Assembly: GCF_002078605.1 (NCBI RefSeq)
Contig: NZ_MSJR01000005.1
Location: 189,922 to 223,142, forward strand
Source: Salegentibacter sediminis
GTDB lineage: Bacteria > Bacteroidota > Bacteroidia > Flavobacteriales > Flavobacteriaceae
Direction of reading: 5' to 3'
Length of the DNA: 33,221 nucleotides
Below the pieces are notes generated by a model. The model was not told the DNA's origin. It saw only the letters and a program-made list of their open reading frames with translations, and ran no database searches. Positions 6,478 to 16,675 of this stretch are shown piece after piece; the stretch's first letter is position 1; every line of letters starts with the position of its first letter. The translations under genes and the position numbers were made by a program.

Positions 6478-6507
6478 AAAAAATCCCGCTATTTGCGGGA
6501 TTTTTTG
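6478..6507. terminator. bidirectional rho-independent terminator
   Basis: TCCCGC-tattt-GCGGGA hairpin flanked by an A-run and T6, placed between the convergent ABC-F and TonB receptor genes. It serves both directions. Confidence 0.85.
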
Positions 6508-6526: not shown

Positions 6527-8809
6527 TCAGAAATTGTAGTTCACAAATAGCGTGAAATTCCTTCCCGGTTCTGTAATGGGTTGCCGGCCGAAGTTGGCTT
6601 GATTGTTAAACGCGAAATTCAGATGACTGTGATAATATTTATCGAAGACATTTAACACTCCAACACCTATATTCAGGTTTTTAATAGCTGTGGTACCTGC
6701 CTTTAAATCCATTAAGCTATACCCCGGGGTTCTGGTTTCGCCAAAAGACGGAGCAATATTTTCCTGGTCGGCGGTGATGTTGTAATAAACGCCTCCCCAG
6801 AATTTATCATTTTCATATTCAACCCGTGAGCGGCTTACCAGGGGTGGAGATAGTGGCAAAGATTCTCCAAGATCTTCATTTTGGGTATAGGTGTAAGCCA
6901 GATCCGTTCCCAGTTTAAAACCGGAGGAAATAGCCAGTTCTCCCGAAAGTTCAAAACCGGTTTTGTAGGCATCATCTAGATTTCTGAAAACTTTAGGATG
7001 AACCGGAGGTTGGTTCGGCATATTTCTTCTTGTTAAAGTTTCATCCACCAGACCAACGATATAATTTTCATAAATAGAATAGAACGCACTTGCTGAAAAG
7101 CTAAAATGCTTCAGGTTCCCGGAATATTCCTCTTTTCCCTTAAACCCGATTTCAAATTGGTTATTTACCTCTGCTTTCAGGTTTGGATTCCCTACATACT
7201 CATAAGGATCTCGTCCAATATTGAAAAACGCGATATAGCGTTCTTCCATATTTGCAGGCCTGGCACCTCTTCCGTAGGAAAACTCCAGGGAATAATTGTC
7301 TTTCAAGATGCGTTTGTACGCCACGGTACCACTAAAAAGCTGCTCGTCGATTTTGCCGGTTTCGGGGTATAGTTCAGCAAAGCCCGCATCCGGATCTTTG
7401 CTTTCAGCAACAATATGGTCCAGACGGGCTCCAAAGTTGAAGATATCCTTTTCGCTTAAGCTAAATTTGGCCTCGGCAAAAAGCCCGTAATCGTTCACGT
7501 AGCTATCCTGCCATACCTTATCCTGAAATTCCATGGGCATTGCCAGAGGTTCCCCGGCCATATTCATTTTAACCAGGCGCTCTCTTTGCCCGTCACGGGA
7601 CAAATTTGTCACATCTACACCGGTAAAGAGTCGCCATTTGTTGTTTAGTCTCCATTCGGTTTCCAGTTTTCCGCCATAGGTGGTTGCGTCTACCCTGGAA
7701 ATAGCCGCCGTGCGATTAAATGAGGGACGAGTATAATTGTTCATAATATGGTCTACAAAAGAATAGTAAGTCTTAGCGGTAAAACCTCTGAACTTACCCT
7801 CGTCCGACCTGTAATTATAGTCCAGGCTAAAGATACTACTGTTGTCCTCATCGGTATCCATCATTAATCCCGCGTGTTTTACATCACGCCCAAAAGATTG
7901 TCTGAAACCGGCTTTTAGCCTGTTATTTTCGTTAAAGGTATAGCCTGCTTCCAGGTTATAACCCAGGCTTCGGAAAGAGGAAGGGATACTTCGGCCCTCG
8001 CCGTCTTCATAATCGCCATAGTCTCTGTGACTAAAATTACCCGACAGGTTCAGTTTATTCAGATTTCCCTGAAGCTGAACCATATTTACCATAGAATTTC
8101 CGTTGCTCTCGTAACCTGAAGAAACGCTTCCCGAAAAATTATCGGTGGTTTGCACTGCATTATCGGTCACCATGTTAATAATCCCACCAGAGGTATTTCC
8201 GTAGCGAACACTGAAGGGACCTTTTATAATTTCAATTCTACTAACCTCTTCTGGATTCACCAGGGTGGTGATAGGGTCCATACGGCTTGGGCAGGCGTGC
8301 ATGGCCTTAACGCCACCGTCAAACTGAATATTTAATTGTTCGTACTGGCTGGCCCGCATACTGGGATCCATAGCATAGCTGCCTCGTTTAATTAAGGCAA
8401 ATCCATTGATGTCCCCAAAAAGTTCCCCAACATTTTTAGGCTGCACCACTTTCTCCCTGAAATTTGTTTTCACCAGGCTTTGTGCAGGATCTATTTGGGG
8501 GTTTCCGTATAAAAGAATCTCACTGATTCTAAAAGTTAACCTTTCAAGATAGATTAGCGCTCCGGGTTGAATGTTGGTAAGACTTTGTTTTCTGTATTTT
8601 AAATGACTTATCTGAAGGGTGTCGTCTTCAGAAAATTCTATAAAAACCTCTCCATTTTCATTGCTAACGGCAGCTTTGTTAGTGCCTTTAATTTGGATAG
8701 TTGCATTTTCTATGGGTTCCATACTTAGCTCGTCGAGAAGGCTTACTTTCGATTGGGCTTGCAGTAATAGCGTTGAGGATAGGAAAATTAATATGCTTAA
8801 AATTCTCAT
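6527..8809 (-). CDS. TonB-dependent outer-membrane receptor, OprC-like (probable copper uptake)
   Basis: The gene encodes 760 residues. There is a signal peptide (about 1-19, ending LQAQS), a CarboxypepD-regulatory-like beta domain (about 20-90), a plug (about 110-220, with R-I-E-I-I-K-G-P-F-S-V-R-Y-G at 191-204), and a 22-strand-type barrel ending in the aromatic FVNYNF. The plug carries HACPSRMDP, i.e. a C-x-x-x-M (Cys173, Met177). The barrel has VDHIMNNY, i.e. H-x-M (His354, Met356). This pair, with 181 residues between Cys and His, matches the CxxxM/HxM copper site known from Pseudomonas OprC at nearly identical spacing. The inferred role is import of copper across the outer membrane using TonB energy. 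It lies 86 nt downstream of a small cysteine protein gene in the same direction, probably in one operon. Confidence 0.88.
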   Translation of the reverse strand: MRILSILIFLSSTLLLQAQSKVSLLDELSMEPIENATIQIKGTNKAAVSNENGEVFIEFSEDDTLQISHLKYRKQSLTNIQPGALIYLERLTFRISEILLYGNPQIDPAQSLVKTNFREKVVQPKNVGELFGDINGFALIKRGSYAMDPSMRASQYEQLNIQFDGGVKAMHACPSRMDPITTLVNPEEVSRIEIIKGPFSVRYGNTSGGIINMVTDNAVQTTDNFSGSVSSGYESNGNSMVNMVQLQGNLNKLNLSGNFSHRDYGDYEDGEGRSIPSSFRSLGYNLEAGYTFNENNRLKAGFRQSFGRDVKHAGLMMDTDEDNSSIFSLDYNYRSDEGKFRGFTAKTYYSFVDHIMNNYTRPSFNRTAAISRVDATTYGGKLETEWRLNNKWRLFTGVDVTNLSRDGQRERLVKMNMAGEPLAMPMEFQDKVWQDSYVNDYGLFAEAKFSLSEKDIFNFGARLDHIVAESKDPDAGFAELYPETGKIDEQLFSGTVAYKRILKDNYSLEFSYGRGARPANMEERYIAFFNIGRDPYEYVGNPNLKAEVNNQFEIGFKGKEEYSGNLKHFSFSASAFYSIYENYIVGLVDETLTRRNMPNQPPVHPKVFRNLDDAYKTGFELSGELAISSGFKLGTDLAYTYTQNEDLGESLPLSPPLVSRSRVEYENDKFWGGVYYNITADQENIAPSFGETRTPGYSLMDLKAGTTAIKNLNIGVGVLNVFDKYYHSHLNFAFNNQANFGRQPITEPGRNFTLFVNYNF

Positions 8810-8844: not shown

Positions 8845-8868
8845 ATCCACCGGTTTATACCGATAGAT
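8845..8868. promoter_or_regulatory. imperfect dyad in the 86-nt gap of the copper operon
   Basis: CGGT-ttat-ACCG (8851-8862) with symmetric ATC/GAT outer triplets (8845-8847, 8866-8868). It sits between the cysteine protein stop and the receptor start. It could be an operator for a second promoter, an mRNA hairpin, or chance. Confidence 0.3.
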
Positions 8869-8895: not shown

Positions 8896-9270
8896 TTAAA
8901 GAGATGGGGGATGAGTTATCCTTGGTAAGTGTTGGTATTTGTAATTATTTAAATAGGCCATTGCAGGTGCCTGCTCTTCCGAAAATTGAAAGACTTGCAG
9001 GTGTAGCACAGGATTAAAAAAGAGAACTACCTGTTCCTGCAAAAAATCAAGCTGCGAAGGTTTTCCCTTAGTGGTGGAATCTTTATTTAATTTAGAAAGC
9101 TCACACTTTCCGTTACATTCCATTTCAGGTTTGTCCTGGTTTACACAAAATAACTCTGTAAAACTCGAATTATCTACCAGGTAAAAACTTATCATGAAGC
9201 CACTTTTTATGCTGTTAAACAGCATAACTACTACAAAAAGCAGAACAATAAGTGTACTTCTTTTTTCCAT
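8896..9270 (-). CDS. small membrane-anchored cysteine-rich protein (putative copper-handling partner)
   Basis: The gene encodes 124 residues. One hydrophobic segment (about 7-32) acts as an uncleaved anchor or signal. After it comes a metal-binding-like stretch with Cys42, Met50, Cys52 and Cys56 (F-C-V-N-x-D-x-P-x-M-x-C-N-G-K-C). A polar linker (57-75), a second hydrophobic stretch (about 76-95) and a tail with His90, His114 and His120 follow. I do not recognise a named domain. From memory, similar short proteins with C-x-x-x-C preceded by a further Cys occur beside copper-type TonB receptors in flavobacteria, but this was not checked. The Cys/Met set suits Cu(I). It is the first gene of the operon with the OprC-like receptor and has its own strong promoter and a CRP-like site. 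Confidence 0.7.
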   Translation of the reverse strand: MEKRSTLIVLLFVVVMLFNSIKSGFMISFYLVDNSSFTELFCVNQDKPEMECNGKCELSKLNKDSTTKGKPSQLDFLQEQVVLFFNPVLHLQVFQFSEEQAPAMAYLNNYKYQHLPRITHPPSL

Positions 9271-9276
9271 TTACGC

Positions 9277-9285
9277 GCAAAGATA
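9277..9285 (-). promoter_or_regulatory. -7 box of the copper operon
   Basis: On the minus strand this reads TATCTTTGC, a full consensus match. The predicted start near 9273 leaves only about 3 nt before the ATG (9270). There is no convincing TTG -33 element, which fits a promoter that depends on an activator. Confidence 0.65.
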
Positions 9286-9307: not shown

Positions 9308-9323
9308 TGTGACCTTAATCACA
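9308..9323. promoter_or_regulatory. CRP/FNR-family-type palindrome upstream of the copper operon
   Basis: TGTGA-CCTTAA-TCACA is a perfect match to the half-sites of the E. coli CRP consensus. Its centre (9315.5) is about 42.5 bp upstream of the predicted start site, the position of class II activator sites. The expected number of such perfect 10-base matches in 33 kb of random sequence is about 0.03. Confidence 0.55.
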
Positions 9324-9415: not shown

Positions 9416-11773
9416 TTAGAAAACCCCGCCGCCCTTGGCCTGGTTGTCATCTCTCTGTTTTCTTTGCAAAGCTTTATTTTTTCCGCCCCCAAAGCGATAG
9501 GAGAAACCTAAATACACAGTTTGTGATTCTCCTTTAAACCTGCCTTCCTGTGGCATAGGCCTGCCGTTAATGAAACTGAATTCCTGGGTGTTAAAGATGT
9601 CATTGAAATTCAGGCTCAGGCTGGCTTTATCCTCCCAAAAGGAATAGCGACCTCCCGCATTCATGAAATACATGGGTTCCATATCCATTTGCAGGTTCTT
9701 GCTTTTTCCACGGTAAAATCCGAAAAGTTGAAAACTTAAGTGCTCCGAAGCTTTGAAATTATGGCTACTTCTTGCGGTAAATGCCGTGTTATCCATTTCA
9801 AGGTAGTCGGTGCCTACTAATCCTTTTAGTTGTTGACTGTAAACTTCGAAACTGGAATTAGTGCTCCACCATTTGGTGAATTTGTAATTGGTAGATAATT
9901 CCAGCCCATAAGAATTGTTATCTTCAAGGTTTGCAAAAGAAAGCAGCAGGGATCCCGGGTCGTTAGGATCTTCCACAAAAACCTGACTTATTTCGTCGTT
10001 GATATTTCTGAAGAATATTCCTGCGCTTATACTACCCTTTGTTTCAAATTTCCTGGTGTAATTAAATTCCAGGGAATTGGTGAATTGAGGTTGTAGATCG
10101 GGGTTACCAGATACTGTTAATCTCGGGCTGCTTACTTCCCGTATGGGGTTTACCTGGGAGAAGCCTGGCCGGTCTACCCTGCGGCTATAACTTAGCTGAT
10201 AGGTGTTCTTTTCTCCGGGAGTATAAGTGATAGATCCTGAAGGATACAGGTTTAAATAATCATCGGTAAAAACTTCTTCTCCATTATAAATAGCATTTAC
10301 CTTAAAATTCTCCAGCCTGGCTCCAAGTTGATAGGACCATTTTTCAAAATTCTGGCCATAGGTGGTGTAAAAACTGTAAATGTCTCTTTTAAACTGATAG
10401 GTGGCATTGTTCATCTCCACATTTGTTGTGGTAAAGGCATTATCGGTATCGAGGATTCTTGCTTCAGCCCCCATTTCCAGCTTGCTGTGTTCATTTAAAG
10501 GATTCTCATAATCCAGGTTTAGCGTGAGGTTCTCCCTTTTATTCTTTACATGATCCCGATATGCTGCCAGGTTTCCGGTGTTTCCGTCAAAGGTGAAACT
10601 GGAATTTTCATCTTCATCAAAGTAGTTGTAATTGCTCTCCAAAAGAATCTTGTGTCCCTCATCATTGAACTTATGGTCGAAAACGAAATTATAGGTAGAA
10701 TTCTGATTTTCGAAATACAGATCCAGGTTTTGGGTAAGATTGTTTTCCGGGTTATTGGGATAGAGGAGCTGAAGTGCCCCTTTCGGCCCACCCTCAAAAG
10801 GGTTTTGATTAGTATAAAAGGAGAAGGTGTTCCTGTCGTTTAGATAAAAATCGACACCCACTTTAAAGAGCAGGGAACGTCTCTTGAAATCCAGATCAAA
10901 GTTCTGGCGGTAATTATCTTCGGTGAGGTAAATGCGGCCAAAATTAAAACGTTCTCCCCATTGTGCGCCAAAATTTCCGAAAAAATTGAATTTGCCTTTA
11001 CGGTAATTTAAGTCAAGAGAACTATTATAGCGGGTATTCTCTCCAATGGTCACCCCAGCGTCCAGATTTCCGTTGAAGCCGTCTTTGGCATTCTTATGCA
11101 AAACGATATTGATGATCCCGCTCATGCCTTCAGGATTATGTTTTGCTGAAGGATTGGTGATGAGTTCAATGCTTTTGATGGAGGTAGAAGGGATCTGCCT
11201 TAGCAGCTGCGCCGCATCCATATTGGTAGGACGCCCGTCAATTAAAATCTTCACATTGGAATTTCCCCTGAGTGCGATATTTCCGTTTTGGTCTACACTT
11301 ACTGAAGGGATATTATTCATAATATCAGATGCGCTGGCACCCGTGGTGGTTAGGTCTTTCCCAACATTGATCACCTTTCGGTCTACGCGTTGTTCAATGG
11401 TGGTTCTTTCAGCAACCACGGTGACCCCGTCCAGCATAGCAACATCAGGCTTCAGATAGATCTTCCCTATGTTAATGTTGGAATTTCTACTGTTGATGTC
11501 TATTTCCCGGTTGAAGGTTTTATACCCCATAAATTGCACCTGGAGCATATATTTTCCTGCTGGAAGTTTTTCTATGACAAAACTGCCATCTCCGTCCGAG
11601 GTGTTTCCCGAGATAAGATTCCCTTCCATATCATTTATTACTACCGTGGCATAAGGAATGGGTTCCTTTAATTCCTCGTCTATGACCTCCCCGGTAATAT
11701 TTCCGAAGACTTCGTTGTTTGCCAGGGAAATGGCGGATGAAAAAAGGGCGATGATTAAAAATAACTGTTTCAT
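9416..11773 (-). CDS. outer-membrane beta-barrel protein, TonB-receptor family (OMP_b-brl_3 type)
   Basis: The gene encodes 785 residues. There is a signal peptide (about 1-18), and a CarboxypepD-regulatory-like domain (about 24-110: ITGEVIDEELKEPIPYATV, LPAGKYMLQVQFMGYK). The plug (about 110-230) carries I-L-I-D-G-R-P-T-N and S-I-E-L-I-T-N-P-S-A-K, followed by a large barrel rich in N-Y-N-Y strands and ending Y-L-G-F-S-Y-R-F-G-G. The tail after the barrel is basic and glycine-rich (K-G-G-G-V-F), so the usual terminal aromatic residue is displaced by about 24 residues. This architecture is that of the flavobacterial outer-membrane beta-barrel family, often linked to uptake of peptides or siderophores. 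No SusD partner is adjacent, so it is a stand-alone receptor of unknown ligand. I found no clear TAnnTTTG box upstream. Confidence 0.88.
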   Translation of the reverse strand: MKQLFLIIALFSSAISLANNEVFGNITGEVIDEELKEPIPYATVVINDMEGNLISGNTSDGDGSFVIEKLPAGKYMLQVQFMGYKTFNREIDINSRNSNINIGKIYLKPDVAMLDGVTVVAERTTIEQRVDRKVINVGKDLTTTGASASDIMNNIPSVSVDQNGNIALRGNSNVKILIDGRPTNMDAAQLLRQIPSTSIKSIELITNPSAKHNPEGMSGIINIVLHKNAKDGFNGNLDAGVTIGENTRYNSSLDLNYRKGKFNFFGNFGAQWGERFNFGRIYLTEDNYRQNFDLDFKRRSLLFKVGVDFYLNDRNTFSFYTNQNPFEGGPKGALQLLYPNNPENNLTQNLDLYFENQNSTYNFVFDHKFNDEGHKILLESNYNYFDEDENSSFTFDGNTGNLAAYRDHVKNKRENLTLNLDYENPLNEHSKLEMGAEARILDTDNAFTTTNVEMNNATYQFKRDIYSFYTTYGQNFEKWSYQLGARLENFKVNAIYNGEEVFTDDYLNLYPSGSITYTPGEKNTYQLSYSRRVDRPGFSQVNPIREVSSPRLTVSGNPDLQPQFTNSLEFNYTRKFETKGSISAGIFFRNINDEISQVFVEDPNDPGSLLLSFANLEDNNSYGLELSTNYKFTKWWSTNSSFEVYSQQLKGLVGTDYLEMDNTAFTARSSHNFKASEHLSFQLFGFYRGKSKNLQMDMEPMYFMNAGGRYSFWEDKASLSLNFNDIFNTQEFSFINGRPMPQEGRFKGESQTVYLGFSYRFGGGKNKALQRKQRDDNQAKGGGVF

Positions 11774-16222: not shown

Positions 16223-16260
16223 AAAAAAAAAAGCTGCAATTGATTTTGCGGCTTTTTTTT
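16223..16260. terminator. bidirectional rho-independent terminator (E2 / BLUF)
   Basis: A10-GCTGCAA...TTGCGGC-T8, an A/T-flanked hairpin with one G-T pair. The stop codon of the BLUF gene (16259-16261) overlaps the end of the T-run. Confidence 0.8.
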
Positions 16261-16675
16261 ATAGATTTTTAATAAAGGACTTGAGCAACTGCAAGGCCGG
16301 GTGATTTTTATCTATTGCTTCTGAAAAAAGAACCTGCCGGTTCAGGTTTTTATACCCGGTTATTTCCCTGGCTTCTTCAGGCTTAAGTCTTTCAAAAGCC
16401 ATCGACCAGTCTGCGAAGCTTCTGGTTTCAGAATGTCCATAATCCAGGATCAGGATTTCCTGGTGCCTTTTGTCTTTTGATATTTTTTCGAATAAGCGGG
16501 TGATAGCCCCTTCTTCTCCTTCCAGATATTGAATGAACAAACCTTCATAACAAATCAGCATGCCGGTAATACCGGCCGCCTCATTGCTTGATCTGGCCTG
16601 GAATAGCATTTTTTCCAGGGCAGCTTCGGTTAAAGAATGAGATTGCTTACTAACGTAAGAGAGATATTTTAACAC
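16259..16675 (-). CDS. short BLUF-domain blue-light sensor protein
   Basis: The gene encodes 138 residues, which is essentially one BLUF domain plus a C-terminal cap of about 45 residues, with no output domain. The flavin-binding photocycle residues are present: Tyr7 (L-S-Y-V-S), Asn31 (S-S-N-E-A-A-G-I-T-G-M-L), Gln49 (F-I-Q-Y-L-E-G), and the D-W-S-M segment (Trp90, Met92). Short BLUF proteins bind FAD non-covalently, respond to blue light by hydrogen-bond rearrangement around the Gln, and signal through partner proteins. No partner gene is adjacent on its strand, and it is divergent from the exonuclease operon. A consensus -7 box lies at 16699-16706. It is probably functional as a photoreceptor. 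Confidence 0.9.
   Translation of the reverse strand: MLKYLSYVSKQSHSLTEAALEKMLFQARSSNEAAGITGMLICYEGLFIQYLEGEEGAITRLFEKISKDKRHQEILILDYGHSETRSFADWSMAFERLKPEEAREITGYKNLNRQVLFSEAIDKNHPALQLLKSFIKNL

Follow-up and report, generated by a model that had tools for sequence, protein, structure and literature searches.

An OprC-type receptor gene of Salegentibacter sediminis and a candidate copper-sensing leader at the head of its operon

A TonB-dependent receptor gene of Salegentibacter sediminis (class Bacteroidia, family Flavobacteriaceae) encodes the residues that hold copper in OprC of Pseudomonas aeruginosa, and it is preceded by a small gene of an unnamed family. The receptor gene lies at 6527–8809 (minus strand) in a stretch of 33,221 nucleotides (nt) from contig NZ_MSJR01000005.1 (positions 189,922 to 223,142 of the forward strand), the whole of which is hereafter called the window, and the small open reading frame (ORF) lies at 8896–9270 (minus strand). 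The best overall explanation of our data is that the genes from 9270 to 6527 likely form a copper-acquisition operon with a cis-acting copper-sensor leader. On sequence grounds, it is highly probable that the receptor takes up copper, and analogy with characterized leaders moderately favors the small ORF as a cis-acting nascent-chain copper sensor.

The receptor ORF encodes 760 amino acids that comprise a plug, a barrel, and, at the N-terminus, a carboxypeptidase-regulatory-like domain (27.6 bits, just below the Pfam gathering score of 32.2). The initial annotation had proposed an OprC-type copper site composed of Cys173-x3-Met177 and His354-x-Met356, and all four residues are present exactly there, encoded by the codons at 8291–8293, 8279–8281, 7748–7750, and 7742–7744 (minus strand), respectively. 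The OprC copper residues that it had named, Cys143, Met147, His323, and Met325, agree with the residue numbers given in PMC8610252, and the near-equal spacing was borne out as well, with 181 residues from Cys to His here and 180 in OprC. Cys173 is the sole cysteine of the protein, which contains a single CxxxM and a single HxM. Alignment with the OprC chain 6fok by phmmer (expect value, E, 2.7e-48) placed all four ligand residues in register, pairing ACPSRMD of the receptor with ACPNRMD of OprC and DHIM with DHIM.

The four residues are also conserved in homologues. They are retained in 111/111 rows of a close set made up of the window and 110 loci (100 distinct receptor ORFs; L001 is the window's own gene), in which the five loci nearest to the window are from Salegentibacter at 86–92% identity. 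They are likewise retained in 150/150 rows (140 distinct) of a wide set drawn from Bacteroidota and Proteobacteria, from which L001, L113, and L114 were left out as duplicates. Only ten columns of the wide set are invariant (C173, M177, D178, Y267, G270, M317, D318, H354, M356, and G379), and four of the ten (C173, M177, H354, and M356) are the copper ligands. Another, Met317 (codon at 7859–7861, minus strand), matches the register of OprC Met286, a silver ligand (Ag2 site) of the methionine track, as counted on the phmmer alignment. A further 38 rows keep all four residues (38/38), comprising intermediate receptors, a second Bacteroidota receptor lineage, five plasmid-borne proteobacterial receptors, L114 (the window's own gene), and L113 (a repeat of L026). 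The second lineage is approximately 27% identical and retains the four ligands in a plug that mostly reads CTDKMDP; its loci are L139–L150, L172, L181, L194, and L199, and the plug of L194 reads CTDRMDP. Within this genome, three further proteins that resemble TonB receptors (the second one of the window, L002, and L003) have neither motif, and four other TonB receptors that adjoin the leader family (L179, L182, L196, and L197) are without the four residues at those columns. No second OprC-type receptor was found in the genome, where the only other matches score poorly (E 4.8e-6 and 1.4e-5) and have neither motif. Upstream of the leader, at 9416–11773 (minus strand), the window also encodes an OMP_b-brl_3 receptor-like protein with no cysteine and neither copper motif.

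The AlphaFold2 model of the receptor, built from a 48-row alignment, has a mean predicted local distance difference test score (pLDDT) of 76.7 and a predicted template modeling score of 0.75. When compared with the PDB by Foldseek, its top 27 matches are all OprC chains (best E 2.3e-39), and the best matches outside OprC are heme receptors. A tree built from 55 rows by a quick method groups the proteobacterial receptors together, does likewise for the second lineage, and places the window lineage with intermediate receptors (support 81); it sets Bacteroidota and proteobacterial receptors apart, but the branch points between the lineages have weak support or stay open. What was observed is the set of ligand residues and how invariant they are, the homology to OprC, and the general fold; from these we infer copper binding and transport. 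The copper-uptake reading of the initial annotation is supported by the OprC register and the ligand invariance, and it withstood the refuting check on conservation in close homologues that came with it.

The small ORF encodes 124 amino acids, is unannotated, and occupies a conserved place at the proposed operon head, ending 86 nt before the start of the receptor ORF. It contains Cys42, Cys52, and Cys56 in a C-x9-C-N-G-K-C arrangement (9103–9147, minus strand), a putative copper-sensing motif, and Pro121-Pro122 two residues before the stop (THPPSL-stop; 8905–8910, minus strand), a putative translation-arrest motif. A homologue is found directly upstream of the receptor and on the same strand in 109/110 loci; in the single exception, L050, the available sequence extends just 88 nt ahead of the match. 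The two ORFs are −165 to 315 nt apart, and the first ATG in frame with the receptor follows the leader at 20 to 317 nt (109 loci). Across the family, Pro-Pro is present in 178 of 179 distinct members (against an expectation of about 0.03 for the final residues), is located 2–5 residues before the stop in 163 of them, and is preceded by His in 113. The stretch that separates Pro-Pro from the last cysteine of CxGKC, or of a near variant, measures 62–71 residues in 171/173, and an extra cysteine precedes CxGKC by 10 residues in 164/171 sequences (not made distinct). The leader starts were picked by script as the Met nearest to 44 residues before the Cys stretch. The member without Pro-Pro, L068, lacks it because its listed ORF ends early, and FHPPQV-stop is encoded just downstream in another frame. 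L068 and L072 are two contigs of Lacinutrix jangbogonensis with the same receptor sequence, in which the receptor frame behind the short leader ORF is open. No Pfam or NCBIfam family matched the leader ORF at E 0.001, and none was credible at E 1 for the leader and 26 relatives.

It is possible that the small ORF encodes a working protein and not a leader, either a membrane-anchored copper chaperone or a receptor accessory, that takes over copper from the receptor via CxGKC. The conserved cysteines would suit such a role, as would the frequent company of copper genes and the single N-terminal helix, which is modeled with confidence at residues 2–32 (block pLDDT 83–98) and is hydrophobic by eye. 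However, the most constant feature of the family besides the cysteines is the terminal Pro-Pro at a near-fixed spacing to the Cys motif, whereas the intervening residues are mostly variable and are modeled at low confidence, with nothing confident after approximately residue 40. In addition, CruR and CutF, which exhibit the same layout and neighbors, are described as acting in cis (PMC9426467, PMC9973294). We consider a working protein rather unlikely, and the nascent-chain leader remains our preferred reading.

The leader family is not confined to OprC-type receptor genes. By a profile search (E 0.001), it was found in 115/199 Flavobacteriaceae genomes and in 102/198 genomes of the class. The OprC-type receptor was found in 75/199 Flavobacteriaceae genomes by a single-sequence search (E 1e-20), with at least 32% identity in 38 of these, and in 12/198 genomes of the class by the TIGR01778 family model (E 1e-40); the leader and receptor counts are not strictly comparable because the searches differ in sensitivity. 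Among 40 leader places of the class, one from each of 40 families and picked irrespective of receptors, the neighbors include a putative outer-membrane protein whose N-terminus is CxxC-like (26), an MbnP-like protein (20), an MbnH-like di-heme protein (13), and an OprC-type receptor (5), and only two places have none of the searched families. In 20 further Flavobacteriaceae places, chosen for genomes without a receptor match, the CxxC protein is found at 15, MbnP at 9, MbnH at 9, other receptors at 5, and PepSY_TM at 4, with a receptor plus PepSY_TM at 4/20. These families were defined by home-made profiles, of which one to three representatives each were checked against Pfam or NCBIfam; single representatives were named as MbnP, CCP_MauG/MbnH, PepSY_TM, and YtkA. 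No Pfam family was found for the CxxC-like outer-membrane protein of L175 and no NCBIfam family for those of L175, L180, and L224. At L217, L218, L223, and L225, the leader is followed by a different TonB receptor and then PepSY_TM (Pfam check for L217 only), so that these Flavobacteriaceae loci repeat the order of cruR-crtA-PepSY in Bordetella. At L204 (5586–7447) and similar loci, MbnP and MbnH accompany the leader, and many of these loci also have the putative outer-membrane protein of about 310–350 amino acids and CxxC-like N-terminus. In the second receptor lineage, a same-strand YtkA-like gene was found in 12/12 loci examined, although the YtkA profile is loose and also matched 9 MbnP loci. 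In some second-lineage loci, such as L181 and L194, this gene separates the leader gene from the receptor gene, and the YtkA-like proteins encoded there on the same strand are rich in Met and His. Taken broadly, the chances seem about even that Bacteroidota possess widespread nascent-chain copper switches (helix, Cys-x9-CxGKC, spacer of 62–71 residues, and HPP-stop), with no detectable DUF2946 kinship, that came independently to lead OprC-type, MbnP/MbnH, and receptor-PepSY copper operons, and that the flavobacterial OprC-type operon adds a CRP/FNR-type operator.

The candidate operator is the palindrome TGTGATTAAGGTCACA (9308–9323, minus strand), the sole exact TGTGA-N6-TCACA in the genome. 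It begins 38 bp before TATCTTTG (9278–9285, minus strand), a perfect match to what we take to be the −7 promoter box of Bacteroidota. The family pattern is a TGTGAC-N4-GTCACA palindrome 37 or 38 bp before a TAnnTTTG box. With at most three mismatches in total and a spacing of 35–39, operator and box were found together in 46/109 upstream regions (42/99 distinct) and in 0/545 Markov shuffles. If the box is a −7 element, the palindrome would be positioned at about −41, which suits an activator of the CRP/FNR family. A wider operator regulon in the genome led nowhere, since the exact palindrome was found only once. Near the operon, genes that look by eye like CRP/FNR-family regulators, candidate readers of the palindrome, were noted in L066 (12760–13398, minus strand), L067 (12874–13518, minus strand), and 9 more, and the stretch TCAMTLSCC occurs in 8/11 copies. 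Between leader and receptor, the 86-nt gap contains a 10-bp hairpin with a 4-nt loop (8845–8868, minus strand; folding z −3.4). Over 88 distinct leader-receptor gaps, folding is stronger than in shuffled sequences, and the mean folding z is −1.65 as compared with −0.50 in coding controls, and z is below −2 in 34 as compared with 6. Beyond the receptor, another hairpin was seen by eye at approximately 6478–6507 (AAAAAATCCCGC-TATTT-GCGGGATTTTTTG), between the receptor gene and a convergent ABC-type ATPase gene, and is probably a two-way terminator.

In the mechanism that we propose, copper ions would cross the outer membrane via the receptor, held between the plug (Cys173 and Met177) and the barrel wall (His354 and Met356) as in OprC, and would then be released by TonB. 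The nascent leader chain would be put into the membrane through its N-terminal helix, CxGKC would encounter copper on the outer side of the membrane, and the C-terminal Pro-Pro would slow or arrest the ribosome. The state of the ribosome on the leader would in turn set the expression of the receptor behind the hairpin-bearing gap. By the CruR logic expected for an importer, a lack of copper would lead to arrest and expression, and copper would lead to release and shut-off. The palindrome would probably serve a CRP/FNR-family protein that activates transcription. From the leader anatomy and its genomic context, both of which were observed, we infer arrest, copper sensing, and the identity of the regulator.

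Several observations weigh against this reading, with regard to both regulation and the receptor itself. A good operator is missing from 63/109 upstream regions, and one with at most three mismatches was found in only 2/80 further leader loci (L143 and L172), so the palindrome was dropped as a general feature of the leader family. Folding z is −2 or higher in 54/88 gaps, and in five distinct Salegentibacter rows the gap hairpin has 90% of cells paired and no covariation. The hairpin starts 27 nt after the leader stop, probably beyond the footprint of a stalled ribosome and too far for direct opening. Arrest may instead be linked to receptor expression by Rho termination (as in CruR), alternative pairing, or message decay. 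CxGKC itself is absent in 10/80 further leaders, and the low confidence past the leader helix may partly reflect a shallow alignment. Finally, the leader ends in HPP (THPPSL), not in RAPP or RGPP, and profile comparison with four DUF2946-type proteins gave no homology (hhalign probability 0.1); Pfam DUF2946 has no match in 27 leader members at E 1. Homology between leader and DUF2946 was thus sought and not found in a comparison covering those four sequences, and the likeness between leader and DUF2946 is therefore one of layout and context.

On the side of the receptor, the model is unsure at the loop of Cys173 (residues 168–180, pLDDT below 50), and for the proposed meeting of the two motifs at the plug-barrel interface we rely on the register with the OprC site of known structure in place of model geometry. 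The score against the equivalog model TIGR01778 is 248.5 bits, below the curated cut-off of 472.45 that is passed by 0/198 genomes of the class; among four proteobacterial receptors scanned, L126, L128, and L130 pass with more than 800 and L127 fails with 463.1. The receptor was thus not classed with the TIGR01778 equivalogs, and we name it OprC-type because of this score, the differing methionine loop, and the tree. The loop at residues 357–371 contains no methionine in the window, so that the methionine-track loop of OprC is missing; in the same columns, 91/111 rows of the close set have one to three. This missing loop would also suit a different cargo in the same pocket, such as zinc or a copper-chelate, and precedents exist, as ZnuD holds zinc at nearly the place of copper in OprC (PMC8610252) and CrtA, of a different copper receptor family, is reported to take chelated copper (PMC12914433). 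However, the soft Cys-Met-His-Met set agrees at every residue with the copper site in the OprC structure, and the invariance of the site and the copper genes that accompany the leader family favor copper ions, which makes another cargo improbable. A coincidental motif in a generic TonB receptor has a practically negligible chance and is refuted by the conservation of four ligands among the ten invariant columns of 150 rows and by shuffling of the receptor, in which CxxxM followed by HxM 170–190 residues on arose at a frequency of 0.00015 over 20,000 rounds.

The genome also encodes NosZ (nos_propeller match in a 676-amino-acid frame), and the heme-copper oxidase superfamily model PF00115 has three matches. 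PF00115 also covers copper-free nitric oxide reductases; as such, NosZ gives a copper importer at least one likely client. In the flanks of relatives (L038–L112), opposite-strand neighbors of the operon were read by eye as cydA and cydB (cytochrome bd), peroxiredoxin, sulfide:quinone-type oxidoreductase, and cytochrome c genes, with 35–42 of 80 loci per cluster, and sulfur-oxidation genes were likewise read by eye on that strand. Elsewhere in the window, a BLUF blue-light sensor domain protein is encoded at 16259–16675 (minus strand).

These results carry OprC-type copper uptake beyond Proteobacteria, the group of its founding paper, into two distantly related Bacteroidota lineages in which the site is invariant. 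They also offer a testable function for a small unnamed gene family present in roughly one of every two genomes sampled from the class (102/198) and, if the leader reading is true, would point to copper sensing at the ribosome in such bacteria. For flavobacteria, an OprC-type receptor has already been reported from Bizionia argentinensis (PMC11213822). The idea of CutF-like leaders in Bacteroidota is also already in print, because a bulk catalogue covers them (PMC9973294); according to that catalogue, 40% of CutF-like proteins belong to Bacteroidota after normalization and TonB-like neighbors are among the commonest overall, and the words OprC and MbnP are absent from its main text. Bacteroidota ORFs with a C-terminal proline upstream of Sec genes have likewise been put forward as candidate arrest peptides (PMC10987492). 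Our literature search, which covered few subscription journals, returned no account of a leader family defined by the CxGKC-HPP anatomy or tied to flavobacterial OprC-type receptors.

When compared with known systems, the receptor shares with OprC the fold, the CxxxM-HxM ligands in register, and the Met286 equivalent Met317, and some proteobacterial relatives likewise have a small leader gene in front. Of five such proteobacterial records, two have an annotated DUF2946 gene at this place, and two more have an annotated hypothetical protein ending in RGPP-FVA (L127) and an unannotated ORF ending in RAPP-VNA (L129); these are the four DUF2946-type sequences used in the profile comparison. In contrast to OprC, to which it is approximately 23% identical by structural alignment, the receptor has an extra N-terminal domain, scores below the TIGR01778 cut-off, and is without methionines at the loop of OprC Met339/341/343. 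NosA is a relative of OprC according to PMC8610252. The Bizionia receptor G2EC70 is likewise a flavobacterial TonB receptor reported with the CxxxM-HxM motif, although the accessible part of that account names no upstream leader, operator, or wider family (PMC11213822). CrtA is also a copper TonB receptor that stands behind a CruR leader with PepSY_TM next, but it is described as part of a receptor cluster of its own that lacks any conserved Cys or Met, with chelated copper as cargo (PMC12914433).

As for the leader, Rhodobacter capsulatus CutF and the proteins catalogued as CutF-like share with it a length below 150 amino acids (124 here), Pro-Pro within the last 15 residues (121–122 here), and a Cys motif, and the set includes Bacteroidota and TonB neighbors (PMC9973294). 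They also have an N-terminal signal and a short gap with a stem-loop, to which the N-terminal helix and the gap hairpin seen here may correspond. The set is further defined by a same-strand gene within 1000 nt downstream, as is found here. CutF differs in that it precedes a copper oxidase gene and turns it on with copper (PMC9973294). CruR of Bordetella pertussis is described as an exported DUF2946 protein that heads a receptor operon and acts by copper-released translation arrest, with PepSY_TM, OprC-type, and MbnPH genes as neighbors (PMC9426467), and its arrest was later demonstrated in vitro (PMC12992588). CruR differs from the leader family in its CxxC motif, its C-terminal RAPP, and its 45-residue spacer, as opposed to CxGKC, HPP, and 62–71 residues, whereas the two have in common a small size, a position at the operon head, a Cys motif, a C-terminal Pro-Pro at a fixed spacer, and the same neighbor families.

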